In this document: in pieces, positions 3-39,270 of the stretch
Position numbering within the stretch: position 1 is the stretch's first letter
Layout: each line of letters starts with the position of its first letter
Virus record (IMG/VR): IMGVR_UViG_3300042731_000955
Span: 1 to 39,270 of that record
Length of the DNA: 39,270 nt
DNA from: a virus
Direction: 5' to 3' (one strand)
Program-made: the position numbers and the translations under genes
Notes under the pieces: generated by a model
Told to the model about the DNA's origin: nothing
The model's input: the letters and a program-made list of their open reading frames with translations, nothing else
Database searches by the model: none

Positions 3-212
3 CAAACTTATATCCCTAGTGATATCAAGAGTGGTTCTGTAATTTTCTTCCCATCATCAATTCATCATTATACTGTACCAAGTCAAAGTGATAAGGAGCG
101 ATTGATTCTTTCCTGGAACCTAGATATTCCAAGAATGAGTATTGATGAACTTCTTCCCAAAAAAGAAGAAGTTGTGGAAGAAAGACCAAAGATCAAGTTA
201 AACTACCTATGA
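3..212 (+). CDS. C-terminal end of a 2OG-Fe(II) oxygenase-like protein (5' truncated)
   Basis: Frame 3 is open from the window edge to a TGA at 210-212, giving 69 residues of a protein that begins outside the window. The visible part has the C-terminal signature of the 2-oxoglutarate/Fe(II) dioxygenases often carried by T4-like cyanophages: a GSVIFFPSS strand, then HHYTVP with the distal metal-binding His, then the ERLILSWN strand whose Arg would bind the 2OG carboxylate. The tail after that is charged (KKEEVVEERPKIK). It overlaps the next gene by an ATGA, which suggests translational coupling. The substrate is unknown; in related phages hydroxylation of a virion or host protein is only a guess. 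The family call rests on this short motif alone. Confidence 0.7.
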   Translation, partial: QTYIPSDIKSGSVIFFPSSIHHYTVPSQSDKERLILSWNLDIPRMSIDELLPKKEEVVEERPKIKLNYL

Positions 213-1073: not shown

Positions 1074-1466
1074 ATGCCTGCCTTTGAGACATTCAAAGAT
1101 TTGAGTGTTACGTTCAAAACGCATCCTGTCACTGACGATCTAGTCACGGTAAAGGACAAAGCAGCTATCGTTCAATCGATATTTGCTTTGCTCCTTACCA
1201 ACAAAGGCGAGCGTCCATTCAAACCAGATCTAGGGTGTGATATTCAAAAATCTTTATTTGAACCACTAGATTACGCTACTGCTGGTATCATTAGATCGCA
1301 AGTTAGCGAAGTTCTCATCAAGTATGAACCAAGGATCACTGTTGATTCTGTTCGTGTCATTCCTGATGAGTTGAATAATGGATATATCGTAGAACTCTAC
1401 TACACGATTGTAGGTAGAGATGACACGCCAGAGGCATCCGAATTCTTCTTAGAGCGTACACGATAA
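1074..1466 (+). CDS. gp25: Baseplate wedge protein gp25
   Basis: This 130-residue protein matches T4 gp25 (132 aa) in size and carries the GPW/gp25 domain over roughly residues 25-120. The family's signature is visible: IVQSIFALLLTNKGERPFKP (helix and turn), then GCDIQKSLFEPLD, then the conserved EPR motif at residues 85-87 (KYEPRI). gp25 is part of the baseplate wedge next to the tail-sheath start, where it is thought to help initiate sheath assembly. Its stop overlaps the gene 6 start by one base (TAATG). No clear Shine-Dalgarno is present. A late-promoter-like GATAAATA lies just upstream. Assignment is firm from size, motif and the following gene. Confidence 0.95.
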   Translation: MPAFETFKDLSVTFKTHPVTDDLVTVKDKAAIVQSIFALLLTNKGERPFKPDLGCDIQKSLFEPLDYATAGIIRSQVSEVLIKYEPRITVDSVRVIPDELNNGYIVELYYTIVGRDDTPEASEFFLERTR

Positions 1467-3262
1467 TGCCTTATACTCAGGTTTCTAATCTAGATTTTAA
1501 TGACATTAAAAGTTCTCTGAAGGAATACCTCAGAGCAACATCAGATTTTACTGACTATGACTTTGAGGGTAGTGTCTTATCTACGCTTCTAGACACCCTT
1601 GCTTATAATACCTATTATACGGCGTTTAATACCAATTTGGTAGTCAATGAACTATTCATTGATTCAGCGACCCTCAGGGACAACGTAGTAGCGATTGCGA
1701 AGCAATTAGGGTACAGACCCAAGAGTGCAACTGCACCTGTAGCGTATATTGACTTTACTGCAACGTATGCAAACCCAACAACTGATACCGAACTCCTACT
1801 GAAGAAGGGAACTGGTTTTATCGCAAACTTTGATAATACCATCTATCAGTATGTTGTAGAAGAAGATGCAAAGGCGCAGGTTGTTAATGGTGTAGCAACT
1901 TGGAGCGATGTTCCCATTAGAGAGGGATCTGTTATCGTTAATACCTTTACTGTTAATACATCTCTAAAGAATCAAAGATTTATTCTTGACAACCAGCAGA
2001 TTGATACTAACACTATCAAGGTTAAAGTATTCCCAAGTGGCGGATCATTCAGCGAACCATATCTTGTAGCAGATAACATTCTTGATATCGACGGAACATC
2101 TAAAGTTGTGTTCCTTGACGAGATTGAAGATGAGAGATATGAACTCTTGCTGGGTGATGGTGTCCTTGGTGCAAAAATTGAGAATGGTTCTCGTGTTGAG
2201 GTATCGTATGTTGTTACCAACGGACCAGAGTCGAACGGTGTAAGAACATTTGTATTCAACGGTGTTCTTGAGAACCTCAATGGCGCATCTCCTGCTAACG
2301 TTACAGTTGATGTTGTATCTGCTGTAGCAGCATCAGGTGGTGAGGACATTGAGACCACAGAGAAGATTAAGTACAATGCTCCTAAGTCATATGGCGCACA
2401 GGACCGCGCTGTGACCGCCCAGGACTACGCTACAATCGTTCGTAAGGTATATCCTGCCACCAGCGACATTCTGGTCTTTGGAGGCGAAGAGCAAGACCCT
2501 CCACAGTATGGTAAGGTATTCATTGTATTGAAACCTAGAGATGCATCTTACCTTACATCATTTACTAAGAATCAAATTGTTGATGAATTGAAGAAATATG
2601 TGGTTGCATCTGTAGAACCACAACTGATTGATCCATCAATTCTTTACATTGAGATTAGCAGCAAGATTTTCTATGATGGATCTGCTACCGATATGACACC
2701 TGCTAATGTAAGAGATAAGGTCATCGGCAATTTACAATCGTTCATTGATTCTTCTGGTATGGAGAAGTTCAATGGCACATTTAGATATAGTAAGGTAGTT
2801 GGTATTATTGACGATTCTGATCGTGCAATTAGTTCAAACTTAACAGAGGTCTTTATGAGAAAAGACTTCTATCCACAGTTGAATTCTTCCTTCTATTATG
2901 AGATTTGTTTCCAGAACCCATTTGCTAAGGATTGTGACGGTCCAGTCCTGTCCAGCACTAAGTTTAGGGTGACTGAATACCCCAATTTTGATGTGTACGT
3001 TGAAGACAGGGATGGCAAAATTGTCCTATATAGACTAGACGCTCTATCTGGTGAAAAAGTCGTTCTCGACAGCGAAGTTGGCGAAATTGATTATGCAAAA
3101 GGCGAACTTAAAATGTATAATTTGACCATCATCAAAGGAACCACTTTCGATAATCGTATCTCTCTTAGAGTAAGACCACTATCTAACGACATTAAGGCAC
3201 TCCGCGAGGTTTATCTTGATGTTGATGTGGCAAATTCCAGTTTCGTTGCATACAAAGAGTAG
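1466..3262 (+). CDS. gp6: Baseplate wedge protein gp6
   Basis: A 598-residue homologue of T4 gp6 (660 aa), the protein that dimerises to form the inner ring of the baseplate and joins neighbouring wedges. The N-terminus (SNLDFNDIKSSLKEYL, then DFTDYDFEGSVLSTLLDTLA, residues about 7-50) is characteristic of gp6 and baseplate J-like proteins. A baseplate-J core motif, AQDRAVTAQDYATIVRKVYP, starts at about residue 311 and is followed by a QYGKVFIVLKP strand. Translation is probably coupled to gp25 through the TAATG overlap, and gene 7 starts 8 bases after its stop. Order 25-6-7-8 is that of T4-like phages. Confidence 0.95.
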   Translation: MPYTQVSNLDFNDIKSSLKEYLRATSDFTDYDFEGSVLSTLLDTLAYNTYYTAFNTNLVVNELFIDSATLRDNVVAIAKQLGYRPKSATAPVAYIDFTATYANPTTDTELLLKKGTGFIANFDNTIYQYVVEEDAKAQVVNGVATWSDVPIREGSVIVNTFTVNTSLKNQRFILDNQQIDTNTIKVKVFPSGGSFSEPYLVADNILDIDGTSKVVFLDEIEDERYELLLGDGVLGAKIENGSRVEVSYVVTNGPESNGVRTFVFNGVLENLNGASPANVTVDVVSAVAASGGEDIETTEKIKYNAPKSYGAQDRAVTAQDYATIVRKVYPATSDILVFGGEEQDPPQYGKVFIVLKPRDASYLTSFTKNQIVDELKKYVVASVEPQLIDPSILYIEISSKIFYDGSATDMTPANVRDKVIGNLQSFIDSSGMEKFNGTFRYSKVVGIIDDSDRAISSNLTEVFMRKDFYPQLNSSFYYEICFQNPFAKDCDGPVLSSTKFRVTEYPNFDVYVEDRDGKIVLYRLDALSGEKVVLDSEVGEIDYAKGELKMYNLTIIKGTTFDNRISLRVRPLSNDIKALREVYLDVDVANSSFVAYKE

Positions 3263-6200: not shown

Positions 6201-9200
6201 GTTTTAACACAACCATCATCTAGCGCACAAGGAACAATCGTTGGAACTGTACAGAATGACAATGTTATTGTCCTTAAAGATGTTATTGGAACATTCGACA
6301 ATACAGGTACGTTCTCTGCAGCGACCAAAACATTCATTTTTGTTCTAGATCAAGATAGTTCATATACCAAGGGTGCTATCTTAAGTTTAACCGATGGTGT
6401 CAATCCGCCAATCGCTACAGGCGAGGTTCTAGAAGGAACTAGCAGACAAAATACAGTACAGATCAAGGTGTTGTCTGGAACTTGGATCTTGGATGATGAC
6501 TACTTCCTCCAGTCAGACAACTTGTTCAATACTTCTGGAACAAAGATTACCGTCATCACATCACTTAGTGATAACTTAGAACCATTTGAAGTTAATCAGA
6601 GTGTTGCTCTAGTAGAGACTACAACTCCACATGGTCTTGGTGTTGGTGATACTGTTAATATCGATATCAATCCAGATGATGCTACAAAGACACAAACTTA
6701 CTACGTAAGAAAGAGATTATATCAGAATGTAGTATTCCAGTCATTTGATAATGACACAACTATCAACTATAGTGGTGTTGGTAGATTCACCATCATGAAT
6801 GGTGGTGCTGATTATACAGAAGGTGTATATACAGATGTTCCACTGATTGGTGGATCAGGAACTGGAGCAAAAGCAGTTATCACTGTATCTGCAGCAGGTA
6901 TCGTAAATGACATTCAGTTGGAGACTGGTGGTGCCGATTACAGAAGAGGAGATTTCCTGAAAGTAGATGATGATGAACTAGGCAGATCAGGAGCATCTCT
7001 ATCATCTTCTCGTCTATCAATCTATGTTGACCATGCTGGTGTTGGATCCCAATCATCAGAGATGAGGGTTGCTAGTGTTGATGGATTTGCAGCAGGTGAT
7101 TTGCTTCAGGTTGGCAGCGAGATTGTTGAGATCTCTTCAATCACTGGAGATGTCCTTAATATTCTTAGAGGTAGAGAAGGAACCGAAGCAGTCAATCACT
7201 ATGATGGCGGCGCAGTTGGATTATACAAACCAAGATATAATTTTGCAGAGAATTTTGCAATTACAGGAAATGATGGCACTGGTTATATCAAGTCGTATGA
7301 TCTAGAGACTCAAACAGCAACAATCATTTTTGATTATGGTGTTGATAAAGTAAATGCAGAGAGTCTTACTATTAGCACCACATTCTTTGACAGCAGCACG
7401 CCAAGTAGACTTGTAAAAGTAAGTTCTGTTGAAAATCCAACGTTTAGATTTGAGATTTCTCCAGACAATGTTAACTTTACAGATAATCCTGACTTAGACA
7501 TCCAAGAATACTATAGGTATGTCTTTGACACCTCTCACTCTTCGATGACTGGTGTTCAGTTTAGTGTAAGTCCAAGTGGCAACTTTAACCTGTTAACTCT
7601 AGAGCAAATTGTCTCTACTGCAGCACCAGGCATTGCTGGATCATTTGTCGATCTCAAATTTGGATTTGGATCAAGACTAGCACAAAATGATTACACTGTC
7701 AAGAGAGGAACAAACTTCTCTAGTTTCTATTACTTTGACAAGAACGGTAATGTTGCATCAGACAATGCACAATTGAACATCGTTCAGGATCCTCTACAAG
7801 GTGAGAAGAAAGTCAATTACGTAACTTCTAGTAGGTTTGTATATGACGTTCCATCCACTCCACTATGGGACGGATCTGGTCAAATTTCATATACAACGAA
7901 CGGTCAGTTTGCCATTGGCGAAATTAATAATATCAATATTATTAACTTTGGTCAGAACTATAAAAAACTACCAACAATCACTGGCGTCGATCCTTCTCTA
8001 GATTATAGAGGTGCTGCTACTGTTAGATTTGATACCAACACAAATACTATTGTTGGTGTTGATATTACTAACAAAGGTTCAAATTATGTCAACCCAATTG
8101 CAATCATCACCGATGGCGATGGCACAGAGGCAAGATTCAAAACGATTTCTAGGAATGGCGAATTGTTCTCTATTACTGTAGAGAACCCTGGCAAAAATTA
8201 CACTTATACTCCAACAATCAGAATCATCGAAGGAGATACCGATCTATTTGCTGAGAGTAGTGAGATTGGTGTCCCACGTAGTGTTAACATTATTAGAAAC
8301 GGTGGTGCATTCCATCTAGACAAAACTGTAGCATCAACTATCACATCGAAATATGCAGTTGCACTACGTGGCATTACTGGCGACTTCCAAAAGGGCGAAG
8401 TTGTAGAACAGAGAATCAATGGTGTTGTTGTCTTTAGAGGATATGTTGCCGAATGGAGAATCGGTTCTAATATCCTTAGAGTAGAAGATATCTCTGGTAT
8501 TCTCAGAGAAAATGCAATTATCACTGGCAGAGCATCTCTATCTACTGGTATTGTAAAATCTGTATTCCTTACAACTTTTGCTGAGAGAATCACAAGTTTC
8601 TATGATAATCTAGGATATTACACTTCTGACAAAGGTAGACTTGGTGTAGCAAACCAAAAACTTACTGATAGCGATTTCTATCAAGACTACTCATATGTTG
8701 TCAAGTCTAAGACATCTATTGAGCAGTGGAGAGATCTCATCAAATCCACCACACACCCTGCTGGTTTCAAACTGTTTGGACAAGTTGATATCGAAGGATC
8801 TGCAACTACATCCATGCCATCAGGTCTTGGTAATAAGGCAAGTCATTTTACATCGATTCAACTTTGGAATCCAGAGAAGAATAAGATCACTAGTGATATC
8901 AAGCAGAGAGTTGTTACTCAGTCCATTCAAAAAGTTCAGAACACTAGAATTCGCAAAGGACAAGGTTCTGCTGCTACTTCAGAGTTCAACTTCAACGAAA
9001 CTCGTGCATTTGATTTTACTCTAGGTGCTCCTTTTGATGGATACTATGATACTGATGGTAGATTGCAAGGAACAAGAACCTTCACTCTATTTGACGATCT
9101 GAATAATCCATTCTTCCCAGTCAGTGCAGAGAATTTGATTATTACATTAGATGGAGTTCTACAAGAACCAGGAATTGCATATACTGTCAATGCTAACCAG

Positions 9201-12200
9201 ATTACATTTGCACAACCACCACTTGGTGATAATGTAAAACTGACTGGTCAGAGTGCTGGCAACGTCACACCATATAAAGGTGTCAAGTTTTATGGTAGAA
9301 ACTTCAATTTCAATCAATCGCAGTATAACCCAAGATACATTAGAAAAATCAGAAACATTTTCCAACGCAATGGAAGATGGATTGATGCTGCTAATCAGAT
9401 TGAAAGAAACAGAACCTTTATTATTCAAGAAGCACTAGGATATGGTCAGTCTAAATTTGCAGTAATCGATTGGAGCACAAAACTTGACGACTACACCGCA
9501 GATGTTGGATATCTACTCGATGCATATGCTCATGACTTAAGATTTGGTGGAAATGCAAAAGTAATTGATTATTCTACGATTTTTGCCAACACTGGATATA
9601 TCACTCAGAATACTACCGAGTCTCTAGAGATTTATCATTATGCTACTAGACTAGCAAGACTTGCTATTAGAAACTGGGATGTAACTGATGAAAATGTTTC
9701 TTATCTACAAGGAGACAACAAAATCACGGTTAGCAGCACAAAAGACCTAGCAATTGGAATGCATGTCAGTTCTGGTAGAGCATTCCCATTAGGAACAAAA
9801 ATTGTCTCTATTGACAGTCTGACACAAATTACAGTCAGCAACTTCGCTGATGCCAACTCTGGTGGTGCAGGTGGTGCATCTGTTCAACAGACAAATATTA
9901 GTGGTAGCACTGGTGGTCAAAATGTTGTCTTCCCAACTAGTGTCGCTGCTGTTCTACCAGGAGATGAGTTCCAAGTTGATTTAGGAGATACTGCATCTGC
10001 TCCAATCTCATTCTCTGGAATTGAAAGCGCAACATTCTATCTAAGTGCTATTAATACTGGCACATTTTATGATGCAGCAAACCTAATTGAAGCTAACTTT
10101 GAATTAATTGCCGAAAGAGCATTTGAAGATACTTTTTTAGCAGGTGTTCAGGGTACTACAGGTGGTTTTGCAGAATACGTAATCAACCTTGAAGATCACT
10201 GGTATAACTTAAAAGACTATATCGATTCTGTTGTGTATCATTTAAGATATGGTGGTAATGAGAGGATTACATCTTTCTGGCAAAGAGTAAATCTTGCAGT
10301 TCCAGCAGATAATGAGAGTTTCCCAGCACCAGATACAATTGTAGATATTGATGCTGGAATGACTTTCAAACAATATCATGAAACATTCCATGCAGATGCA
10401 TTGTATGCATCAACCCAGTATATGGTTGCTGCAATGCGTAATACGCTACAACCATCTAATGAGGATTATCAAGGTGCAAATCGCCAACCATTCATCGACA
10501 ATACAGTAGCTGCTGATACTCAATTCCCATATTGTATTGAAGTTGAGTCTGCTCTCAACACGATGCAGGAGATCGTTCAAGGATCTATAGAATATGAATT
10601 GAATTCATCTTACACTGGTCCTGTTGATCCAACACCAGAAAATGAGAACAAGCGCGGACAATGGACAGAAGTTCTAACATATTCAAACTACAATATCATT
10701 GCTGATCCACTAATTACTGCTGAAGAATGCAATGATGTAATCTCCACAGTTGATACCTTGTATGATACTGTTGAGGATATTTTCAACGATATCAATGTAG
10801 AACTTGCTATTCCTGACTTTGTTGATGGAGAAAACAAAGAGTTTGAACTATATTGGAGCAATGGCGACCCTGTAATTACAGAAAAAGATGAAAATCTATT
10901 GGTCACCATCAACGCTGTATTGCAGGCAACTAAGTTTAATGCTACCTATCCTGGTGAAGATTCATATTACATTGACAGAACTGTTGTTCCAAACAGACTA
11001 GTATTTGATGTTGCTCCTATCTGGGATCAGGATGCTGGTGCTAAGACTCTAGGCGAACCAACTGCTGTAGAAAAAGTTGCTGGTATTGGTATTGGTAATT
11101 ACAAGAGACTAACAATTGATCAAAATCTCATCAACAATGTAAGATCTGGTCCATTCCTAATTCTCGATCTTGAGGATCGTACTGTACAAAGTGTAGATGA
11201 ACCAGACTACTTATTGGTATTTGTAGATGGTGTTCTACAGGTACAAGGCGAGAGTTATAACGTTTCTGGACCCAACATCTTCTTTGAGTTCCCAATCACG
11301 GAACAGATGAAGATTGATATGAGATATCTCTATGGTAGAGATGTCGGTCAGATTCTTAACATCTATGATTATAACCCAGATCAGTATTTTGCACAAGCAG
11401 AGATTATTCTCCGTACAACTTCTGGTATTCCTGAATTTGTAGCAGGCAATTGGTCTGGTATTTACAGAGGTGGTGTTATGCAATTGGTGCAGTTCAGACC
11501 AGATGGAACTACCAATGCTATCGGTGAGATTACTGATTACTCTATTAGTGGCAATACATTTAATGCTAAAATCTTTGGTGCTCAAGCAGAGATCGAAGAT
11601 TTAGATGTATATGTTTGTATCAAAGGAAGATACGATATTAACAATCGTTTTGAAATTAATCGTCTTCTCTCGTCTATTGTATATGAGAGAGATGAGAATG
11701 GCAGAATTACTCTAAGAGGTATTGATCAGATTTGGAGAGGTACGTATTTAAGAAATACTTACAGAAATCCATTCATCAGTCTGTCTAATAGCACTCAAAT
11801 TAGAGTAGAGGGTCAGGATACTTTCAGAAGAATCAAAAAACTTCCTTCTACACTAACAAGTAAGGAACAAAGACTGCAAGAGGATGTATCAAACTCTTAC
11901 TTCGGATTTGTTGAAATTGATTCTTACAATGGTGTCAGCAGAGGTGAAGGTCTCAGTATTGTTGCTGAGATTGAAAACGGATCTGTTGTTAATCTTGTAT
12001 GGAACCAACGTAGTTATGATCCTATCACACAACCAACAGCATATCAATATTATACACCACCTGTAATCAACTTTGTACCCAAAGATGGCAATGGTGGTGG
12101 TGCATCTGCTAAGGTTCTGGTAAGCAAAGGTCAAGTCATTAGTGTTGAACTTGTTAGCGGTGGTTCTGGATACACAGAGGCACCACAAGTAGTTGTAGCA

Positions 12201-28978: not shown

Positions 28979-29479
28979 ATGGCATCTACAAAAGAAAAGT
29001 TTGATTCAGCTGGTGGATTTTCTGTAGAAAAAACAGTTCATATTGATGAACTGCACAATATTCAGAATATAAACTCTGTAGAATTAAAGAATACATATTA
29101 TGCTGATAGCAGACATAAAACTGTTATTCTCCGTGGACTCAATACGGCAGTTCTACAGTTAGATGACATTGGAACACAACCTACAATTGATAACAATACC
29201 ATTAACTTTATTACTGGAAGAGTTATTGCAGTAAACCCACAAGGCACTGTTTATTCTGCAAAATTAGAGTCTGTTGTTACGTGTGGTCCCGCTGGAGCAA
29301 CAACAGTTTTATCCACAATGACTACTGTTATTAAGGATGATATTCCAACTGGTCAGACATGGGACATTGTTCCATTGGGATCAACAAACCGTTTCAGTTA
29401 TTCAACTACGAGAGCAGGCACGACAAATACAATCAAGTGGTTAGTGGCTACTGAGATTGTTAGTATTGCATGGACCTGA
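28979..29479 (+). CDS. Structural-type protein of unknown function (166 aa)
   Basis: A 166-residue, strand-rich protein without signal peptide or membrane segment. The middle contains VILRGLNTAVLQL and a GTVYSAKLESVVTCG strand, and the end has FSYSTTRAGTTNTIKWLVAT. The layout of its last 90 residues (GTVYSAK, then strands, then an NTIKW strand) loosely parallels the C-terminal domain of the preceding 1608-aa protein (EIYSAATEESAKVVV, then NTVRLNI), so the two may share a terminal beta domain. It starts 2 bases after the previous stop and is the last gene before the promoter at 29482. I do not recognise a named family; a small virion protein is the likeliest role. Confidence 0.75.
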   Translation: MASTKEKFDSAGGFSVEKTVHIDELHNIQNINSVELKNTYYADSRHKTVILRGLNTAVLQLDDIGTQPTIDNNTINFITGRVIAVNPQGTVYSAKLESVVTCGPAGATTVLSTMTTVIKDDIPTGQTWDIVPLGSTNRFSYSTTRAGTTNTIKWLVATEIVSIAWT

Positions 29480-29523: not shown

Positions 29524-32500
29524 ATGAGTTTTAATATCAATTCCGATAAAGAGTTTATTAGAGGTTCAAAACCTCAACTCATCGGTGATAACGAACTTAC
29601 TATTAGAGCAGGTTCTGGTACTCTCGAAAGAGAGATTATTAGAACACAATTAGATGCAAACACAGGATTGCCTCGTGTTGGTATTAACAGAACAGGACAA
29701 AGAGTCAACGAAGTTAATATCACTTCTGGTGGTTCTGGATATACAACTGCTCCCAGTGTTCAAATTGATCCTCCTTCTACTCCTGGTGGACAGCAAGCAC
29801 TAGCATCTGCTTTTATCTTTAACGGGCAAGTAATTAACATTGCTATCAACAACCCTGGTAGTGGATATACTTCTGCTCCTGAAGTAACTATTAGTGGTGG
29901 TGGAGGTGCTGGTGCCGACGCAGACGCAGTTCTTGATACCGTTGATTTTGAACTTGACATCAATGGTGCTATTAGAACTTCAACGTCGATCATTTCAGAC
30001 ACGGCAAGAATTCTAAACCTTGATATTGATAATGTTGTTACTCCTGACCTAGTATTAAGAGGTCCAAACCTCAAGACATACATGAATGGCACTGGAACCC
30101 TTTGGGATTCCAATGTTATTGTACAGAAAGATGCTTACAGATATTTTGGTGCAAACGTATATCAAGCAATTGAAACTGGCACCACATCAGATTCTGCACC
30201 AGTACATACTGATGGTATTGAACTAAATGGTACTGTTCCATTTAAGCATATTGGTATTAGATCAAATGACCAGAATGCATTTGCATTTGGTGAAACTGGA
30301 GAAGCAGGCATCTTCCCTCGTTCTATTACCCCATTACTTGGTGATAGATCCGATAGAATTGCTACTACAGAATACGTCCTCAACCTAGCGACAAATGACG
30401 TTGGTGGTCGTATCTATGTTTCTGAGCAGATTGGTTCTGACTTGAACGATGGTCGTTCAGCAGTTAATCCTGTTCGTACAATTAAGAAGGCAGCGCAACT
30501 AGCGTGGGCAACTCCTGGCGTCAAAGAAACGCTAGTTGTTTCTGGTGGTGATTACCTAGAAGATAACCCAATCTCTCTACCACCAGATTGTTCTATTGTT
30601 GGTGATAACTTACGTCTTGTAATCATCAGACCAAAAAACCCTGGCAAGCATATTGTCAAGTTTGGTGATAAGAACTATGTTATTGGTGTCACTTACAGAG
30701 ACCAGATTGATGCTAACGGAGATCCCGTTGCTACTTGGGATTTTGCTATGGTCTTTGATGACAAGCAAAGAATTTGTATTGACAAAGAAGCAAATGGCGA
30801 TTTTGGCACTGCATACCCAATCGGTCACCAAATTTTTGGACCAGACAGATTCCGTGTTGATTTCCAACAGAACACTGGTCTACAACAACTTACGACTGGA
30901 TTAACAGTTGTTGGTGTTAACACTGGTGCTAGAGCAACTATCATTGATAACACATTTACAACAACTACAGGTGCTAGTGCATACATTAGTGGTACACTCG
31001 ATGTAGAACTAACCAGTGGTTCTTTTGTAGAAGGTGAACAATTTAGATACATTACTTCTGCATCTACCAATAGTGCAATTACTGCATTCACTATTACGGA
31101 AACTAGTGGTCAAAATACATTCAGAACGACTACAGATCCAACGTCAGAAATTCCTGGTGGTTCGTACCTCTATCTAGATGATATTGATGATTCTAGTTTC
31201 ACTCAAGGATACTACGAAGTTGCTAGTATTACACCAGATGATGATGTCAATCCAACTTATTGGGATGTTGAGGTTGTTCCTATTCTAGGATCCCCACAAT
31301 GGAATACAACTCAATCAGAAGGCATTTTAATTTATGATGCTAGTGTAGTATCATACACATTCGACTCTACAAGTCTAAAGTCAATTAGAGCAGAAGGTGA
31401 AGTTGTATCTGTTGATGATGACATCACAAATACTTTACCTATTCAGAGAATCGACTTCTCTCTACAGGGTGATCCATCTATTGCAACTGGTGGTTTCCAG
31501 TCCGCTCAGTTTGGTAATGCTGAAGACCTTGGTGGTATTGTATTCTACACCAACGAACTAGTTGGTAGAGCAAATACTCACGACTTCAAAGAAGGTCAAG
31601 AAATTTTAATTCAAGGACTACCAACTGGCGGAGGAACAGACTTAGGATTCCTAAATGGTAAGCAAAGAATCTATAAGGTTCTAGAAGATGCTGACGGTCG
31701 TGCAAGAAGATTCGTTATTCCTAAAAAGTCATCAATTAACGATGCAAACTTTGATCCTGGTCAAAACGCTACAGTAAGCACCTTCTCTAAGAGTATTACT
31801 CTATCACTACTCAACTCACCAAACACCTTCCCTCTTGCAACACCTGTAGATAGAAGGTATCAAGATGCTTGTACTTTCATCCGCAACAACAGAGAGTTTA
31901 TTGCTGATGAAGTCGTCGGAAGAATTAATGATGAATTTAAGAAAGATCACTATGCAGTCTATGATGTTTCTGGAAATGATTTCAAAATCTATCTTGGAAC
32001 TTCGGGTCCTGCAAACATTTATGACAACACAAATCCAACTGGCACAGTAAGTTTTGGTGGTAGTGTATATAATATCACCGATTTTGTCTATGATAATACA
32101 GTCACTGGTGTAGCGACGATTACAACTAGCGTTTCAATCCCATCACTTAACGAAGATGATATTGTTAAGTTAGCAGGAATTGAAGTCAGTTGCGATAATG
32201 GAACTAAGATTTACCCAGCATACTCTTCTCCTGGAAGTGATGATCAGTGTCGCGAAGATGTCATTCACTTCTGTAATGCAATTGTCAGAGATTTAGAATT
32301 TGGATCAAACCACAATGTTATTGAAGCAGCACAAAAATATATTGTTGGTGCTAAAGTTACATATGTAGAAAACGAAATTATTCAAACTGTACGTGCAATT
32401 GAATATGCACGAGAGTTGTGCATCTATGCAATGAGAAACTGGAGAACCGAAAACGGAACTCCATCGGATCCAGTATATGTACCACAATATTCTTCTGTAA

Positions 32501-35500
32501 CAAGATACTTTGATGATACTGTTATCACAACAACAGCAGGAACACCTGCTTGTGCCAACGTAGCATCTGCTATTGACGCTCTAGCATTTCTCTGGGTAGA
32601 TGTTATTTCAAATGATGCAAGTGGTACGTATCTAGATGCTGCATATTTGATTGCTAGAAACAGAGATGTGATTGCAGATCAGGCACTGATTGATACCGAG
32701 ACAGCTTATCCTGGATTGGGTCTAGATGATATCAATCAAAGAAAGTGTCGCAGAGATATTAACTATGTACTTGGTGGATTGATTAGAGACCTTGTTCTTG
32801 GTGGAAACTCTGGTATTGTAACAAATGCAGAATTCTACTTCACTGGAACTGAACTTACTGGAATTCCAGAAACTCAAAAAGCTGAAACTATCTACGCATT
32901 CCAGAGAGTAGCAGAGTATGCCAAGCAGGCAATGCGTAATTGGTCTAGCAGTGGAAACATCACTGCTTCTGCACCAACCAATGCTACTTATAGTCCAACC
33001 AGTGGTCAACTTATTCTTACTATCCCAACCGCAAATCTCCCTGCAGGGTTCCGTGGAGGTACTCCAGATAGCAGAGTAGGATTCCAGTTGGGAGCATTAT
33101 CTTTCACCTGCAATCATGATGGTGGTGGAACAGACGCAAGTCCAAAAATTCTGGATGCAAACGTAGGTCAATCATTCCCAGTTCTAGGATATAGTGAGAG
33201 TGGTGGTATTTCTACAATCCAGTTGAATGTTGGTCCTGCTGGAAGTAATACAGATGCACATACTTTTGATAGTGCTCTTCCAAACGGAACAATTTTCGTA
33301 AGTGATTACACAGCACTAACTACACCTATTCCTAGATTTGAGGACCACTCGATTCTAACAGATTATCCAAACACACCATTGTGTGCTGGTGTAGAATCAA
33401 CAATCTCTACTGCAATGGGTCTGTTTGAGGACATCCTCGATGGAACTATTGAACCTGGAGCAACTACAAAAACTACAGGAACAATCTTCGATCCTGCGGA
33501 GATTATTACATATCCAGATTCTTACATCTATGACCAGAATAACGTCAGAACGGCAGTTCGTGCTATCTATGATGATTATCCAATCATTGAAGCATCACCA
33601 TATACTCAGAACTCTTCTGTTATCTCTTTCCTTGGTGGTAGTGGTGCTCTGGTCGATGGTTCTAAGGTCAAGCAACCCAACTGTCCTTTCCCAGGTCTAG
33701 AGTTAGACGGAACAGCGTCCTTCCCTAACCAGGGTAAGTCGATGGTTGCATCTGCATTCACCATCGTCTCCTTTGGTGGTACAGGATACAAGGTTATCGA
33801 AGATGGATACACCCAGTTGGTTTCGGTCTTCGTTATCTTCTGTGCTGACGGTGTGCTTGCTGAGTCTGGTGGTTATTGCTCCATCACGAACTCTGCTACT
33901 AACTTTGGTATCCACGCTCTTCGTGGTGTTGGATTCAGAAGAGAAGCATATAGTTTTGACGTTGGAACAATCACCAACGTATCCTCTACCCCAACTGGTA
34001 GAGCAATTCTGACAGTTGATGGTCTTGGAAGAGAACCACTAGAGCATTATGTTGTCAAGATTGACGGATATGAAAATACAAACGAAGTAGAATACTTCAT
34101 TGATTCTGTAGGAGATGTAGGTGCTGGACCACCGTTCCAAGCAGATCTTACCATCGATGATGGTCAAGGTCAACCTATGGACATCACTGACAGTGCTACT
34201 GGTCTTCCAGTTTCCACCAGTGTTCTTACTGGTAAAACAATCAGACTACACAGACCTTCTATCGTTAACTCTTCTTCCCACACTTGGGAATTTGCAGGTT
34301 CTGGTACTAACTACTTAGCACTACCTGAGAACGGTGGTACTAAGGATGAGGCAGAAGAGCAGGTATCAGAAAACTATGGTCGTGTGTATGTCTCAGGTAC
34401 TGACGAACTAGGCGACTTCAAGGTTGGTACGTTCGCTAGAATTGAGAACAGAACTGGCGCTATCACCTTTACAGGTACGGTTACCATCTCAGAAGTTGAA
34501 TTCTTGAAACTGAAGGGTGGCGACGTTGTTGTTACTGGATTCTCTGCTGATAATACTCTTGGTGGAGCAGCAACTAGCGACTCTGTACTACCTACTCAGA
34601 AGGCAGTTAGAGATTATATCACTAACAACCTTGGTCCTTTCATCAACAAACCATACTCCACGAACGCTGTTCCTAGAGCACTGGTCGAACTTACTGATTC
34701 TGGTAAGATCTCTATTGACCAGATCCCAGCACTCAGACCATTTGAAGTCTATACTGTTGCTGACGCTGCAGCAAGACGTTCTATTGAAGGCGCACTTGCT
34801 GGTGATATTGCTATCCAACAGGATACAAACGCATCGTTTATTCTTAACAACGATCTAACCAGTCAGTTCTTAGCATTCCAACCAGATCCAACACTACAGT
34901 TTACTCTCAATGACATCTTTACTGGTAGTGTATCTAATGGTCGTATTCAGGCAACTGAGTATAGAGAAGGTGTTGTCTATACCCTAACTCTAACTAATGG
35001 TGGTTCTGGATATACCCAGGCACCAACAGTCCAAATTAACGGAACTCTAGGTCAAGGTGGTGTAGAAGCTAAAGCGGAATGTACTATCGCAAATGGCGAA
35101 GTTGTAACTATTTCGCTAATTGAATACAATGGATATATTGGTGGTAAAGGATATTCTTCTACTGATCCAATTACTGTTGTTATTACTTCACCTCCTGGAG
35201 CAGGTGTTACAGCACAGGCAAACGCTTTACTTGAATCAAGACTTTACGGTGATATCGTCAACAGAATTCAAATTGAAGATACCGATACTATTGAAAGTAG
35301 CGATGTTCCATCGGTAACAGTTAACTTAACTAGAGTCGTTAATACATCTTCTTCACTAGAATCTAACTGGGTAGCACTATCTTCAAACCAGATTGCTGCT
35401 TCTGATATTACTAGTGGTGTTCTTGAGACAGATAGACTTGCTCTTGGTGGCACTGCAAACTCCTTTACATTCTTGAGAGGAGACTCAAACTTTGCACTTG

Positions 35501-38500
35501 CAGTTCAGTCGATCAAAGGTGCTGAAGTTAGATACTTTGCTAAACTATATTCTCAAGCAAGTGGTGGATCTAGTCAACTTGTTTTCACCACAAACTCTGA
35601 CTTCTTAAAAGGTCATGAAGTTCTTCCTTCCGTAAATGGAATTCCATTAAACACAACCATTGACGGCGTACTTACCTCAGGTGGATTAACAACAATTGCG
35701 TTGAATAATGCAATTACTCAGACCATCAACGCTGGAACAGTCATTGAATTTGAGCGTGGTGCATCACCAATGGTCTTTGAGTCCACATACACTCAAGGAA
35801 ATTTTGTTGATAGCATTATCATCACTAATGGTGGTAGTGGATTTACAAACGGACAATATTTTGACGTTGGACTTGACGGTGGTACTGGCACAGGACTAAA
35901 AGCAACGATCACAGTTTCTGGTAATACAATTACAGAACTAGTTGTAACTGATGGTGGTTCTGGATATACTAGCGACTTTACTATTATCACTCCACCAACA
36001 GATATTGGTGCTGGATCCAGTATGGTTCTGGAAGCTAAAGTATCGACGGTCAACAGACAGTATGCGAACATTGCAGTTGACGTTGCAAGAACAACAGATC
36101 TAACAATTTCTTCGGATCTTTATGGCACAATTGGTGTTTCAAGATTCAAGAAAGATCAGTTTAATATCGGTACTGCAGGCAATGGTTCCATCGAACTTAA
36201 GACTGGTCCTGGTTCAGGACTAGACGCTGACTTACTTGATACCAAGCAAGGTTCTTTCTATACCAACGCAACAAACCTGTTCTCTGGTACAGTACCAACT
36301 GACCGACTAGCAGGTTCTTACAATATCAGTGTTTCTGGTTCTTCTGGTAATACCTTAAGACTGGCAACTGGTACTAACAACCCAACCTCCAACCCATCAC
36401 CAAACAACTTCGTCGAAGGTTTGGTTGCTAACACAATCAACAACTCCGCTGATGGTTTGAATGATGGCGGTTCTCAACACCTTGTTCTAACAATTAGAAA
36501 CAAAGGTCAGGGTCTAACTGCTGAAGGTGGTGTCAGACAAATGGCATTCACCGACAACGATAACATCTATCTACGTGGTTCTGGAACTGGAGTTACCACA
36601 TTCGGTACATGGGCAAAACTCTGGACATCACTAAATGATGGTCCTGGTTCTGGTCTAGATGCTGATAGACTTGCTAACAAGTCATCAACTTGGTATAGGA
36701 ATGCATTGAACATCAACTATGGTGTTCTTTCTGACAATAGAATTCCTACATTCTTACAAGCAACTAAGTTTAAGGATGATATTATCATCCAATCTTATAA
36801 TGGAGATCCTAGATATCGCGTTTATATCTCTGGTCAAATTCTCAACACATCTCCATTTACTCCTGGTAATGCAGTCAATCTATACAACGCACTTTCACAG
36901 GCAGTTGGTAGAATTGAGATCGACAATATCATCATTAACGATGATACTGATGATAATTTCAATGATTATACCATTATCATTGGTAGATTAACAAGTGGAG
37001 ACTTCAATGCACAAGGTGGTGCTGAGACTATTGGTAGTGCATCAAACAAAATTCCATTTGATGAATATGCAATTGATGACGGCAACGTCTTAGAAGTTGC
37101 AAAACTAGAAAGTGATGGCGGCACTGCTAACCTAAGACTAGGTAGAAAAGATGGTACTGCTTCTTCTCCTGGTGTTTATTTCAACAGTTCTCAGTTGGTT
37201 GCTAACTACAACACCGCAATTGTTGCTACTGGTGGTAATGCTACTGATGGATCAGGTACATTAAACGCACTCGTAGTTAATGCTGATGGATTTAACATTA
37301 ACGGTAATGTTGTTTGGAACGCTGGCAATATTACATTCCAGTCTTCAAACGTTGCAGATACTGCAGTAAAACGTGATGGATCTGGCAATTTTGCTGCTGG
37401 AACTATTACTGCTTCACTAACTGGTGCTGCATCACTCAACGTTCTGAAGACTGGCGATACCATGACTGGTTCGTTGAGTATTTCTGGAACTGGTTCTAAC
37501 CTATCAGTCGCTGGAACATCTCTATTGACTGGTGTTGTCACCATGTCAAATGATCTAAATGTTGATTCTGGTGCTCTATTCGTCGATGCTTCTTCTAACG
37601 AAGTTGGTATTAACGCTGGCAACAATCCACTATCTACTTTAGATGTTGTTGGTGATTCTGGTATCTATATCCGCACATCCACGAATGCTGTTGGTGCAAA
37701 AATCAGATTCTCTGATCAATCAGGTTCTACAACTCAAATTGGTACTTTCAGATATAACCACTCTGATAGTCAATCACCTAATAGCAATTATGGTGAAACC
37801 TTCACTATTGAAGGTACAGAACCAGAACTAGCACTCCGTGTTGTTGGCGACATTATTTCTTCCAGAAATATCGGTATCAACATCAACAGACAACCAAACT
37901 ACAACTTGGAAGTCGATGGTACTGGTTTCTTCAGTGGTATTCTGACACTTCAGAATACTGGAGCAGGTCAAATCAACTTCAACAATAACTCTGGTACGCG
38001 CTACTGGAAAGTTGGTTCTAACACAAATACATCTAATGTCTTCTCGTTTGAAGCATCTGATGCAAATGGAGGAACTGCCTTCAGTGGAGCACCTGCTATC
38101 TCACTTCATGGTGCTACCAATGCAGTAACAATCAACACAACTGCAACATCTGGTACTGATCCAACTGATGGATCTACTGTTAGAAACTATAAGTTCAATG
38201 TCGAAGGAGACATGAACATCAACGGTCAGTTCTTCCAGAACAATGCCGAGTTTGTAACATCCAGATGGACTGAGGCGACTAACGGAAATGACATCTATAG
38301 ATTGTCCAAGGTTGGTATCAATAAAGCAGATCCACAATATACTTTGGATCTCGATGGTGATTTTAATATCACGGGTATCCAGTATATTAATGGTAATGCA
38401 CAATGGTTGGATGCTAATGGAATTATCAAGGTTGTTCAAAATGCAGATATTGCAGAGAACATCACTATTACCAATTCTACCGATGCTTACTCAGATGGTC

Positions 38501-38565
38501 CTATTGTAATTGCAAACGGATATACAGTTACTATTGGTACTGGATCTTCATGGTCAATTAGATAA
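29524..38565 (+). CDS. Giant tail-fibre-like protein (3013 aa)
   Basis: A modular adhesin. In order: GxGYT repeats (about 59-140); a carbohydrate-binding-like YQAIETGTTSDSAPVHTDG stretch near 216; IATTEYVLNLA (about 279); the first part of a pectin-lyase-like beta-helix (294-450, GRIYVSEQIGSDLNDGRS); two helical DAA...RNW modules (781-973, 1038-1140); the resumed beta-helix (about 1340-1490, VISFLGGSGALVDGSKV and GGYCSITNSATNFGIHALR); LPTQKAVRDYI (about 1690); more GxGYT repeats (about 1820-1900, 2095-2170); GLDADLLD and GLDADRLA fibre motifs (about 2232, 2377); LKTGDTMTGSLSISG (2641); and a VTIGTGSSWSIR end. These motifs are typical of trimeric phage fibres. No S74 chaperone domain is visible. 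Likely role: receptor contact on the cyanobacterial surface. The beta-helix could bind or cut polysaccharide, but no catalytic residues can be assigned. Confidence 0.85.
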   Translation: MSFNINSDKEFIRGSKPQLIGDNELTIRAGSGTLEREIIRTQLDANTGLPRVGINRTGQRVNEVNITSGGSGYTTAPSVQIDPPSTPGGQQALASAFIFNGQVINIAINNPGSGYTSAPEVTISGGGGAGADADAVLDTVDFELDINGAIRTSTSIISDTARILNLDIDNVVTPDLVLRGPNLKTYMNGTGTLWDSNVIVQKDAYRYFGANVYQAIETGTTSDSAPVHTDGIELNGTVPFKHIGIRSNDQNAFAFGETGEAGIFPRSITPLLGDRSDRIATTEYVLNLATNDVGGRIYVSEQIGSDLNDGRSAVNPVRTIKKAAQLAWATPGVKETLVVSGGDYLEDNPISLPPDCSIVGDNLRLVIIRPKNPGKHIVKFGDKNYVIGVTYRDQIDANGDPVATWDFAMVFDDKQRICIDKEANGDFGTAYPIGHQIFGPDRFRVDFQQNTGLQQLTTGLTVVGVNTGARATIIDNTFTTTTGASAYISGTLDVELTSGSFVEGEQFRYITSASTNSAITAFTITETSGQNTFRTTTDPTSEIPGGSYLYLDDIDDSSFTQGYYEVASITPDDDVNPTYWDVEVVPILGSPQWNTTQSEGILIYDASVVSYTFDSTSLKSIRAEGEVVSVDDDITNTLPIQRIDFSLQGDPSIATGGFQSAQFGNAEDLGGIVFYTNELVGRANTHDFKEGQEILIQGLPTGGGTDLGFLNGKQRIYKVLEDADGRARRFVIPKKSSINDANFDPGQNATVSTFSKSITLSLLNSPNTFPLATPVDRRYQDACTFIRNNREFIADEVVGRINDEFKKDHYAVYDVSGNDFKIYLGTSGPANIYDNTNPTGTVSFGGSVYNITDFVYDNTVTGVATITTSVSIPSLNEDDIVKLAGIEVSCDNGTKIYPAYSSPGSDDQCREDVIHFCNAIVRDLEFGSNHNVIEAAQKYIVGAKVTYVENEIIQTVRAIEYARELCIYAMRNWRTENGTPSDPVYVPQYSSVTRYFDDTVITTTAGTPACANVASAIDALAFLWVDVISNDASGTYLDAAYLIARNRDVIADQALIDTETAYPGLGLDDINQRKCRRDINYVLGGLIRDLVLGGNSGIVTNAEFYFTGTELTGIPETQKAETIYAFQRVAEYAKQAMRNWSSSGNITASAPTNATYSPTSGQLILTIPTANLPAGFRGGTPDSRVGFQLGALSFTCNHDGGGTDASPKILDANVGQSFPVLGYSESGGISTIQLNVGPAGSNTDAHTFDSALPNGTIFVSDYTALTTPIPRFEDHSILTDYPNTPLCAGVESTISTAMGLFEDILDGTIEPGATTKTTGTIFDPAEIITYPDSYIYDQNNVRTAVRAIYDDYPIIEASPYTQNSSVISFLGGSGALVDGSKVKQPNCPFPGLELDGTASFPNQGKSMVASAFTIVSFGGTGYKVIEDGYTQLVSVFVIFCADGVLAESGGYCSITNSATNFGIHALRGVGFRREAYSFDVGTITNVSSTPTGRAILTVDGLGREPLEHYVVKIDGYENTNEVEYFIDSVGDVGAGPPFQADLTIDDGQGQPMDITDSATGLPVSTSVLTGKTIRLHRPSIVNSSSHTWEFAGSGTNYLALPENGGTKDEAEEQVSENYGRVYVSGTDELGDFKVGTFARIENRTGAITFTGTVTISEVEFLKLKGGDVVVTGFSADNTLGGAATSDSVLPTQKAVRDYITNNLGPFINKPYSTNAVPRALVELTDSGKISIDQIPALRPFEVYTVADAAARRSIEGALAGDIAIQQDTNASFILNNDLTSQFLAFQPDPTLQFTLNDIFTGSVSNGRIQATEYREGVVYTLTLTNGGSGYTQAPTVQINGTLGQGGVEAKAECTIANGEVVTISLIEYNGYIGGKGYSSTDPITVVITSPPGAGVTAQANALLESRLYGDIVNRIQIEDTDTIESSDVPSVTVNLTRVVNTSSSLESNWVALSSNQIAASDITSGVLETDRLALGGTANSFTFLRGDSNFALAVQSIKGAEVRYFAKLYSQASGGSSQLVFTTNSDFLKGHEVLPSVNGIPLNTTIDGVLTSGGLTTIALNNAITQTINAGTVIEFERGASPMVFESTYTQGNFVDSIIITNGGSGFTNGQYFDVGLDGGTGTGLKATITVSGNTITELVVTDGGSGYTSDFTIITPPTDIGAGSSMVLEAKVSTVNRQYANIAVDVARTTDLTISSDLYGTIGVSRFKKDQFNIGTAGNGSIELKTGPGSGLDADLLDTKQGSFYTNATNLFSGTVPTDRLAGSYNISVSGSSGNTLRLATGTNNPTSNPSPNNFVEGLVANTINNSADGLNDGGSQHLVLTIRNKGQGLTAEGGVRQMAFTDNDNIYLRGSGTGVTTFGTWAKLWTSLNDGPGSGLDADRLANKSSTWYRNALNINYGVLSDNRIPTFLQATKFKDDIIIQSYNGDPRYRVYISGQILNTSPFTPGNAVNLYNALSQAVGRIEIDNIIINDDTDDNFNDYTIIIGRLTSGDFNAQGGAETIGSASNKIPFDEYAIDDGNVLEVAKLESDGGTANLRLGRKDGTASSPGVYFNSSQLVANYNTAIVATGGNATDGSGTLNALVVNADGFNINGNVVWNAGNITFQSSNVADTAVKRDGSGNFAAGTITASLTGAASLNVLKTGDTMTGSLSISGTGSNLSVAGTSLLTGVVTMSNDLNVDSGALFVDASSNEVGINAGNNPLSTLDVVGDSGIYIRTSTNAVGAKIRFSDQSGSTTQIGTFRYNHSDSQSPNSNYGETFTIEGTEPELALRVVGDIISSRNIGININRQPNYNLEVDGTGFFSGILTLQNTGAGQINFNNNSGTRYWKVGSNTNTSNVFSFEASDANGGTAFSGAPAISLHGATNAVTINTTATSGTDPTDGSTVRNYKFNVEGDMNINGQFFQNNAEFVTSRWTEATNGNDIYRLSKVGINKADPQYTLDLDGDFNITGIQYINGNAQWLDANGIIKVVQNADIAENITITNSTDAYSDGPIVIANGYTVTIGTGSSWSIR
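29728..29744 (+). repeat. 17-bp GGSGYT word, copy 1
   Basis: ggtggttctggatatac, identical at 34999-35015 and 35953-35969 in the same gene; encodes GGSGYT at the heart of the beta repeat. Confidence 0.8.
31861..32445 (+). repeat. Helical DAA...RNW module, copy C, with internal insertion
   Basis: Residues about 780-974 of the fibre protein: DACTFIRNNREFIADEV, then CREDVIHFCNAIVRDLEFGS, ending ELCIYAMRNW. About 100 residues (about 805-905, ending VSCDNGTKIYPAYS) are inserted between the first and second landmarks. Same module as 9384-9677. Confidence 0.65.
32632..32943 (+). repeat. Helical DAA...RNW module, copy D
   Basis: Residues about 1037-1140: DAAYLIARNRDVIADQA, then CRRDINYVLGGLIRDLVLGG, ending AEYAKQAMRNW. 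This is the most regular copy and has no insertion. Confidence 0.7.
34999..35015 (+). repeat. 17-bp GGSGYT word, copy 2
   Basis: Identical to 29728-29744; lies in TNGGSGYTQAPTVQI. Confidence 0.8.
35953..35969 (+). repeat. 17-bp GGSGYT word, copy 3
   Basis: Identical to 29728-29744; lies in VTDGGSGYTSDFTII. Confidence 0.8.
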
Positions 38566-38571
38566 TAAATA
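38564..38571 (+). promoter_or_regulatory. Candidate late promoter (AATAAATA) before the last gene
   Basis: AATAAATA overlaps the fibre gene stop and ends 24 nt before the ATG at 38595, the same distance class as the gene 25 element. AGGA at 38579-38582 could be a weak Shine-Dalgarno. Confidence 0.45.
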
Positions 38572-38594: not shown

Positions 38595-39270
38595 ATGTCC
38601 CAAGTAAATGCTGATAGAATTAATGTGGGAATGGGTGTTAAGTTTCCAGCTTTAACCCAATCCCAAATTAATGCCCGCTCCACTCAACCTGGAGATATGG
38701 TGTATAACATCACTGAGGAATCTTTCCAAGTTTATAATGGACTTGAAGGTCAATGGGAAATCATTGGAGAAGGGGCAGAGTTGTATGAGTTTAGCAGTGT
38801 TACTTTTACTCCTGGTGGTCAGACTGGATATACTGGTCCATCACTAGCACAAGTTAGATCTGCAATTAGTGGTAATGACGCATGGAAAAACGATACTAGT
38901 CTTTTCAATGTATCTAGTGGAAAGATTGAATGGACTGTCCCTGCAGATGCTGATTATTCAATCACAGCAGTAGGTGCTCAAGGTGGTAGAAGTAATTGCT
39001 ACGGTCCTAATGGTGGATTAGGTGCTTCAATGCAAGGTGTATTTACGCTTACTGCAGGACAGAAACTGTATATGGTTGTTGGACAAAGAGGCGGAGATAA
39101 TTGTTATGATGGCGGTGGTGGTGGAGCATCTTATGTCTGTACTGCATCAAGTGGTAGTGCATTACTTGTAGCTGGTGGAGGAGGTGCTGGATCTGCATCT
39201 GGTATGAATGGTCCTGGTCCTTTCCATGGTCATACTGGAACTACTGGAGGTGGTACAGCATGGGCTAATG
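38595..39270 (+). CDS. Adhesin-like virion protein with glycine-rich domain (3' truncated)
   Basis: An ORF open from ATG 38595 to the window end, 225 codons so far. The N-terminal part (NVGMGVKFPALTQSQINARS, then PGDMVYNITEESFQVYNG) resembles the short MVYNT...FQVYNG segment common in phage fibre proteins and in the 1608-aa protein here. From about residue 113 it reads WTVPADADYSITAVGAQGG, then TLTAGQKLYMVVGQRGG, then DGGGGGASYV and LLVAGGGGAG. This order matches the glycine-rich domain known from ALK/LTK receptors and from phage and bacterial surface proteins. Probable host-contact or fibre-tip protein; the missing C-terminus prevents a firmer call. Confidence 0.8.
   Translation, partial: MSQVNADRINVGMGVKFPALTQSQINARSTQPGDMVYNITEESFQVYNGLEGQWEIIGEGAELYEFSSVTFTPGGQTGYTGPSLAQVRSAISGNDAWKNDTSLFNVSSGKIEWTVPADADYSITAVGAQGGRSNCYGPNGGLGASMQGVFTLTAGQKLYMVVGQRGGDNCYDGGGGGASYVCTASSGSALLVAGGGGAGSASGMNGPGPFHGHTGTTGGGTAWAN

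Follow-up and report, generated by a model that had tools for sequence, protein, structure and literature searches.

An ALK/LTK-type TNF-like and glycine-rich domain in tandem putative fibre-tip genes of probable T4-like cyanophages

The stretch of DNA analysed here (the window) corresponds to one virus record, 39,270 bases long (G000); its features are collected in Table 1 with those of related loci, which are designated by L numbers. The window ends within the first gene past a giant fibre gene, and this gene is read from an ATG at 38595 in a frame that stays open to the contig end at 39269 (225 amino acids). The original prediction had placed an ALK-like glycine-rich domain and the start of a new virion gene at 38930–39270; the glycine-rich motifs that it quoted do lie there, all within one open frame on the + strand, but the gene start does not, since the open reading frame (ORF) begins at the ATG and the range covers only its second half. 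The proposed virion or fibre setting was supported by gene order, and the giant gene occupies the position of the 'tail fiber-like protein' in ACG-2014e and S-WAM2. Judged by sequence, the virus is very probably a T4-like cyanophage, because its gp6-like baseplate protein shares 77.6% identity with the counterpart in S-WAM2, a Synechococcus phage and member of the Kyanoviridae.

Table 1. Positions of features in the window and, where a locus is named, in related contigs (GRD, glycine-rich domain).
Feature	Position	Strand	Remarks
Baseplate wedge (gp6-like)	1466..3262	+	S-WAM2 protein, 77.6% identical
Virion structural protein	28979..29479	+	phrog_5449, E 4e-72
Giant tail-fibre-like gene	29524..38565	+	3013 amino acids; directly upstream of the window GRD gene; assigned by gene order
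ATAAATA, late-promoter-like	38565..38571	+	30 bases before the ATG of the window GRD gene
Putative fibre-tip gene, 5' part	38595..39269	+	225 codons, about two thirds; 3' end missing at contig end
N-terminal anchor module	38595..38780	+	residues 1–62; 71% / 69% identity to L002 / L003 position-1 anchors
ALK/LTK-type TNF-like plus glycine-rich (TG) domain	38781..39269	+	about 60% of the domain present
DUF6171 motif	L002:7016-7507, L085:100-564, L011:5460-5975 (by eye), L037:2897-3379		C-terminal in some small genes
Stand-alone DUF6171	L021:7074-7361, L025:7134-7391		

The window ORF matched phrog_22713 (8.5e-15). Full-length relatives comprise 335–347 amino acids in L002, L003, L005 and L085 and 338–376 amino acids in L011. 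The homologous domain opens at residue 63 ('LYEF', at about 38781), upstream of the range first proposed, and the part present in the window includes 'LYEF...FTPGG..G..GPSLAQ', the counterpart of which in relatives aligns to ALK. The missing 3' end was searched for with two 30-base exact patterns (one near the window end, one in the anchor), neither of which matched a viral contig. Window positions 39202–39270 and L005 positions 1–69 (a contig end and a contig start) represent the same tip stretch and are 90% alike over 69 bases, and the last 26 bases of the window are present twice in L005; from this likeness and the 26-base repeat one might guess that both contigs broke at repeated tips.

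The profile search that the original prediction had proposed was run with the Pfam model of the domain (PF12810, ALK_LTK_GRD), which matched the window ORF with 27.3 bits (curated cut-off 24.5). Alone, this model is a weak witness, because it missed the full-length relative L002:6001-7005 at E ≤ 1 and matched only 17 of the 39 members of alignment A3 at E ≤ 0.01. With the single L002 protein as query, phmmer retrieved eight matches at E ≤ 1 from 177,635 PDB sequences, all of them ALK or LTK (best 1.6e-8). A profile built from 39 viral relatives gave nine distinct matches in the same PDB set at E ≤ 0.1, all ALK, LTK or scd-2, and no other glycine-rich PDB protein was matched at this threshold; the best match (6.2e-41) was collinear over the whole domain (profile positions 45–321 to chain positions 36–336). 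The glycine content of 23% in the window part of the domain and the 40-bit HMMER bias of the PDB match obtained with the profile would be in keeping with a purely compositional likeness, glycine-rich sequence aligning to glycine-rich sequence. The chance of this is virtually negligible: a less glycine-rich stretch of the L002 protein matched the PDB by itself (7e-5, bias 0.7 bits), and a control profile, from which the window row and its 10 close rows had been dropped so that 28 distant relatives remained of the 39, scored 163 bits on the window domain, with best scores of 6.0 on 1000 residue shuffles, 18.1 on 1000 5-mer block shuffles and −1.5 on the reversed sequence. Composition as the cause of the ALK match was ruled out by the shuffles, the reversal, the confinement of PDB matches to ALK/LTK/scd-2 and the fold match (Z 33, see below). 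The homology of the window domain to the ALK/LTK glycine-rich domain is real, and the likeness first proposed was upheld by profile, by the predicted fold of the L002 relative and by the shuffle controls. The original prediction was to be abandoned if the full protein gave no profile match; full-length relatives were searched in place of the cut window protein, and the outcome favoured homology. No kinase domain was found in Pfam scans of the window ORF and the L002 relative, and the relatives of 335–347 amino acids end with the GRD. Cellular genome contigs were scanned with A2, and none of the 35 pattern matches was a relative, a result that says little on distant relatives because the patterns were narrow.

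Since the window protein was too short to be tested as a whole, an AlphaFold2 model of the full-length L002 relative was calculated from a 39-row alignment (mean pLDDT 90.3, pTM 0.82). A TNF-like sandwich with an inserted glycine-rich bundle is present in the predicted model, and all 21 Foldseek matches at E ≤ 0.001 were ALK, LTK or invertebrate ALK. VIA-align comparison gave Z 31.8–33.3 with human ALK/LTK (rmsd 1.9–2.8 Å, 232–248 residues aligned, 34–38% identity) and Z 22.1 with invertebrate ALK (scd-2); the next rows were phage proteins, namely the mycobacteriophage Bxb1 tail-tip chain (9d93, Z 8.5 over 138 residues) and, as moderate matches, Pam3 (7ypx, Z 8.2, 134 aligned; 7yfw, Z 7.7, 130 aligned). 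Because Z was 31.8–33.3 for ALK/LTK and 7.7–8.5 for phage fibres, the modelled viral family is nearer to the animal receptors than are the solved phage fibres among the fold matches listed. S16 gp38 and snow-flea-type glycine bundles were not among the 50 fold matches listed, which excludes nothing. In ALK, the ligand sits mainly on the TNF-like part, and the statement in the original prediction that poly-Gly helices bind ligand there does not seem accurate. Residues 1–62 of the model contain one 6-residue helix and three strands; the anchor (model residues 15–57) resembled a stretch close to the C-terminal end of CBA120 TSP3 (VIA Z 5.3–5.4) and the N-terminal segment of Mtd, whose N-terminal domain has a beta-prism fold (Z 4.5–4.8, 42 residues only), a likeness that in both cases rests on about 40 residues.

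The TG domain of ALK/LTK (7nx1, 7nwz, 7lrz, 9g5i; PF12810) and the phage family match over the whole domain in collinear sequence and in fold. They differ in that no kinase or other Pfam domain was found in the phage proteins, which end with the GRD and carry an N-terminal anchor, and a long insert of ALK in the profile alignment is missing from them; further parts of ALK are MAM, EGF-like and transmembrane regions (PMC10605310). Among phage proteins, Pam3 gp24 (7YFW/7YPX) is likewise a fibre protein whose distal domains are TNF-like and glycine-rich, and it too has a small partner. It is likened by its authors to C. elegans ALK (2.6 Å, 125 residues) and described as a trimer with variable distal loops and a chaperone, gp25, and gp24 but not gp25 was detected in virions (PMC9608196). 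However, gp24 has an alpha-helical N-terminal shaft where the L002 model has an anchor, Pam3 has a single fibre protein whereas the cyanophage relatives have an array, and the likeness of gp25 to the small genes described below is only putative. Bxb1 is distant, its chain belonging to the tail tip of another phage type, and the Bxb1 domains have been likened to the S16 glycine bundle (PMC13243192). The Salmonella phage S16 gp38 adhesin (6F45) is also a polyglycine-rich host-recognition tip, but has a beta-helix middle domain and a three-layer lattice of 10 motifs (as told in PMC9608196). Finally, phrog_22713, phrog_7388, BFVD entries and a DSL-LC01 protein match the domain by sequence or fold, while their sizes and other parts differ.

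Relatives were collected by a scan of viral contigs, in which 82 of 460 pattern matches were confirmed, the best 80 of the 82 giving 78 distinct loci with relatives; an annotated phage collection (50,697 records) contained four matching records (S-CREM1, two records of S-SZBM1, and DSL-LC01). The nearest relatives keep the order of the window, giant fibre gene followed by GRD gene. The full order in L002 and L003, and likewise in the divergent L011, is giant fibre – GRD – small – GRD – small – GRD – gp13 – gp14 (L002 and L003 are 94% alike, L004 is identical to L003 over the shared part and L012 to L011 over 10,099 bases). Of the first GRD gene, L085 retains only the final codons ('AGGGSYNGGT...GSISITKIA*'), after which come small – GRD – small – GRD – short gene – gp13 – gp14; L005, which begins within a GRD gene, covers the right-hand part of the array. 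The array is thus whole in two divergent lineages and, in a third, cut in its first gene. In the same slot, ACG-2014e has a 301-amino-acid protein and two short ones, and S-WAM2 has seven genes annotated as hypothetical. A comparison of pelagimyophages and cyanomyophages describes a host recognition cluster with VrlC on one side and the neck genes on the other (PMC7029224); by gene order in L002, L011, L085, ACG-2014e and S-WAM2, the slot fits a variable island of this cluster. The window's own array presumably continues past the contig end. The short gene between the last GRD gene and gp13 in L085 (2970-3185, phrog_580) encodes a 71-amino-acid charged, probably coiled-coil protein, and short genes stand at its place in ACG-2014e and S-WAM2 as well. 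In L058, L059, L062, L063 and L064, the GRD match is broken by a stop after 24 codons of the called frame, possibly by a frameshift, through another start or in a pseudogene.

In T4, the gene order is gp12-wac-gp13, with wac directly before gp13. In L002, L003, L085, L005 and L011, no fibre-type gene precedes gp13/gp14 more closely than the last GRD gene, from which gp13 is separated by one short gene at most, an arrangement that would suit collar or neck fibres, stand-ins for the T4 fibritin whiskers, which would aid fibre attachment or sense the environment without receptor binding. Such a role is unlikely for the GRD proteins: the content of the slot varies among relatives, and its region is published as a host recognition cluster (PMC7029224); tips of L085 and L005 diverge more than the anchors (72% versus 94% alike); and receptor binding has been reported or proposed for proteins with a domain of this kind.

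For comparison of their two parts, proteins were split at residue 63 into anchor and tip. Anchors of the same position were alike across lineages, with 69–71% at position 1 (window versus L003 and L002), 74% at position 2 (L002 versus L085) and 73–74% at position 3 (L002 versus L085 and L005), and anchors of different positions were only 19–32% alike. Tips followed another pattern. Within L002, the proteins of positions 1 and 3 are 89% alike in their tips and 24% alike in their anchors, and within L003 the tips of these positions are 92% alike; this equals the likeness of matching tips between L002 and L003 (89–92%) and exceeds that of L002/L003 tips to the matching position of other lineages (60–68%). 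At the DNA level, positions 6190-7013 of L002 match 9094-9917 with 88%, from near residue 64. The position-2 tips are an exception, being distinct from those of positions 1 and 3 within L002 and L003 (54–57%). In the tree, the position 1 and 3 proteins of L002/L003 form one clade (support 100/99) with the L005 position-3 protein outside. An anchor of this kind recurs in the ACG-2014e protein of the same slot (34% over 58 residues, E 2e-8, one comparison), the C-terminal part of which gave no significant match. Anchors are hence kept by position, and tips move or are homogenised. Such modularity, as read from the sequences, would be that expected of receptor-binding proteins and may have arisen by duplication or gene conversion of tips.

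ATAAATA is the late-promoter core motif of T4-like phages and cyanophages. Within 80 bases upstream of the GRD genes it was found in 8 of 13 cases and CTAAATA in the remaining five, at a distance of 23 to 38 bases (one extra ATAAATA lies at 7 bases in L011), and neither motif was found before any of nine small genes; CTAAATA was added after the sequences had been seen, and since some GRD genes are near-copies the counts are not independent. On this distribution, each GRD gene seems to form one transcription unit with its small gene. The window contains five copies of ATAAATA, all on the + strand and 30–61 bases before ORF starts at 1074, 13893, 24150 and 38595; with 9.4 sites expected by chance for both strands, it is not enriched in number. 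The L002/L003 lineage and L011 have three consecutive GRD genes, as does L085 with the first cut by the contig start, there are three position-specific anchor types, and Pam3 gp24 is a trimer, so that the products of the three genes might also be thought to form one hetero-trimeric tip, in the manner of TNF-family heterotrimers, rather than three homotrimers. This is very unlikely, given that every one of the 13 GRD genes examined is preceded by an [AC]TAAATA motif of its own and that the first two in the array each have their own small gene, that anchors of different positions have so little in common, and that the search found one GRD place in each of the annotated S-CREM1 and S-SZBM1 records.

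The first two GRD genes of the array are each trailed within 13 bases by a gene for a protein of 86–171 amino acids, all of one family (A5); in L011, one GRD/small gene pair overlaps by 4 bases. The family was found in 10 of the 84 loci examined (18 ORFs), corresponding to about six distinct genomes because several of the loci repeat one contig or differ little from another, and among the 73 loci in which the GRD ORF is intact, 6 have a small gene next to it on the downstream side. In the family search, the best reversed ORF reached E 0.012 and true matches 1.6e-28 or better, the latter value being that of the first small-gene copy of L011, which had been left out of profile building. Likeness to phrog_4998 was seen for the small gene of L037 (8e-6) and, at 0.0014 to 0.054, for four others, two giving none. 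By tblastn, relatives were found in FENT2 (annotated phrog 4998, directly after the tail fibre gene) and Salmonella phage 19 (after a tail protein gene), and a third is itself annotated 'phage tail assembly chaperone protein'. Searches for structural counterparts were negative: the A5 profile found nothing in the PDB under E 0.28, one member searched by phmmer nothing there at E ≤ 10, hhalign gave no match to the Mu tail-fibre chaperone U (probability 0.05), and an AlphaFold2 model of poor quality (pLDDT 69.8) had no Foldseek match at E ≤ 0.001 and no VIA hit with Z ≥ 2. On account of gene order, phrog_4998 likeness and the three tblastn relatives, we lean slightly towards folding partners (chaperones) of the GRD proteins as the role of the small genes. 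A four-cysteine motif (DUF6171/phrog_13558, probable zinc ribbon) is found fused to, or after, fibre-tip genes (Table 1; below Pfam's cut-off in L021, L025 and L037).

We consider it likely that the GRD genes encode swappable receptor-binding fibre tips of two modules, of which the window holds the first of three in a row, with partner genes. Residues 1–62 would be an anchor fixing the protein to a set place on the virion, and the second module a TNF-like beta-sandwich with projecting glycine-rich strands, of the fold that serves ALK/LTK as ligand-binding TG domain. The window protein would most likely be the first of three tips encoded between the giant fibre gene and the neck gene gp13, the first two each with a small gene for a probable folding partner. 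The glycine bundle may act as a rigid scaffold, with loops at its free end touching the host surface, and recombination that moves tips between anchors could provide several binding specificities, changeable without rebuilding the virion. Trimerization, display on the virion surface, receptor contact by the end loops and partner-assisted folding are inferred after Pam3 and the Klebsiella phage TFP_Y, in which infection-restoring mutations are reported to map to the glycine-rich domain (PMC12671077). On the other side, hypervariable regions of cyanophage S-TIM4 in experimental evolution are reported to have received 14.5% of mutations while making up 16.6% of the genome, that is, without concentration of mutations (PMC6224464); this counts in part against rapid adaptation via such islands, in an experiment blind to exchange between phages.

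A phage fibre with TNF-like and glycine-rich domains resembling ALK was already known from Pam3 (PMC9608196). As far as searched, three things are new: a family that stands much nearer to ALK/LTK, the tandem cassettes that it forms within the host recognition cluster in relatives of T4-like cyanophages, and the decoupling of anchor and tip; none of the literature matches listed reported tandem fibre arrays with ALK-type domains or transfer of an ALK-type domain between phages and animals. The ligand-binding region of a human oncogene receptor is thereby tied to a family of probable virus fibre tips by sequence and predicted fold, far more tightly than through the phage fibre structures solved to date, and a tractable system is offered for target recognition by a glycine-bundle head; the array with fixed anchors and mobile tips could serve as a model of how marine cyanophages multiply and swap host specificity. 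It is tempting, if doubtful, to regard the ligand-reading head of ALK/LTK and the viral fibre tips as one module moved between viruses and animals, the receptor head being, most boldly, a captured viral adhesin tip. In phages this module would serve as a plug-in, with three position-fixed anchors and exchangeable tips, each tip gene having its own late-promoter-like motif and the first two also a partner gene. As evidence on the direction of transfer, a 42-row tree (truncated window row left out) was set aside, the placement of ALK being unreliable: one ALK segment stood beside L083 (95/84) with a branch length of 2.33 and unlike composition, and was flagged unsure. BFVD matches of the L002 model include A0A7M3UP39 (Pyramimonas orientalis virus), A0A7D3R0D4 (Fadolivirus) and A0A3G4ZVB1 (Edafosvirus), with low TM-scores; such matches in large viruses that infect eukaryotes could bear on the module's route to animals.

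Some phage proteins are named 'receptor protein-tyrosine kinase' (BFVD) or 'ALK tyrosine kinase receptor' (DSL-LC01 WJZ48558.1), which is likely annotation transfer, apparently from the glycine-rich domain alone, and the domain likeness explains these misleading labels. Clusters of genes annotated as 2OG-Fe(II) oxygenases lie a few kb from the GRD gene in S-CREM1 (L006, 17674-23164; eight plus a JmjC gene, with a collagen-like gene) and S-SZBM1 (L007, 17152-23215; three), where hydroxylation of fibres is possible. By eye, two slot proteins of S-WAM2 (L090:17721-19039) are similar to 2OG-Fe(II) oxygenases, and an ORF at window positions 3-212, open at its left end, resembles the C-terminal part of the 2OG-oxygenase-like S-WAM2 slot protein P0011.
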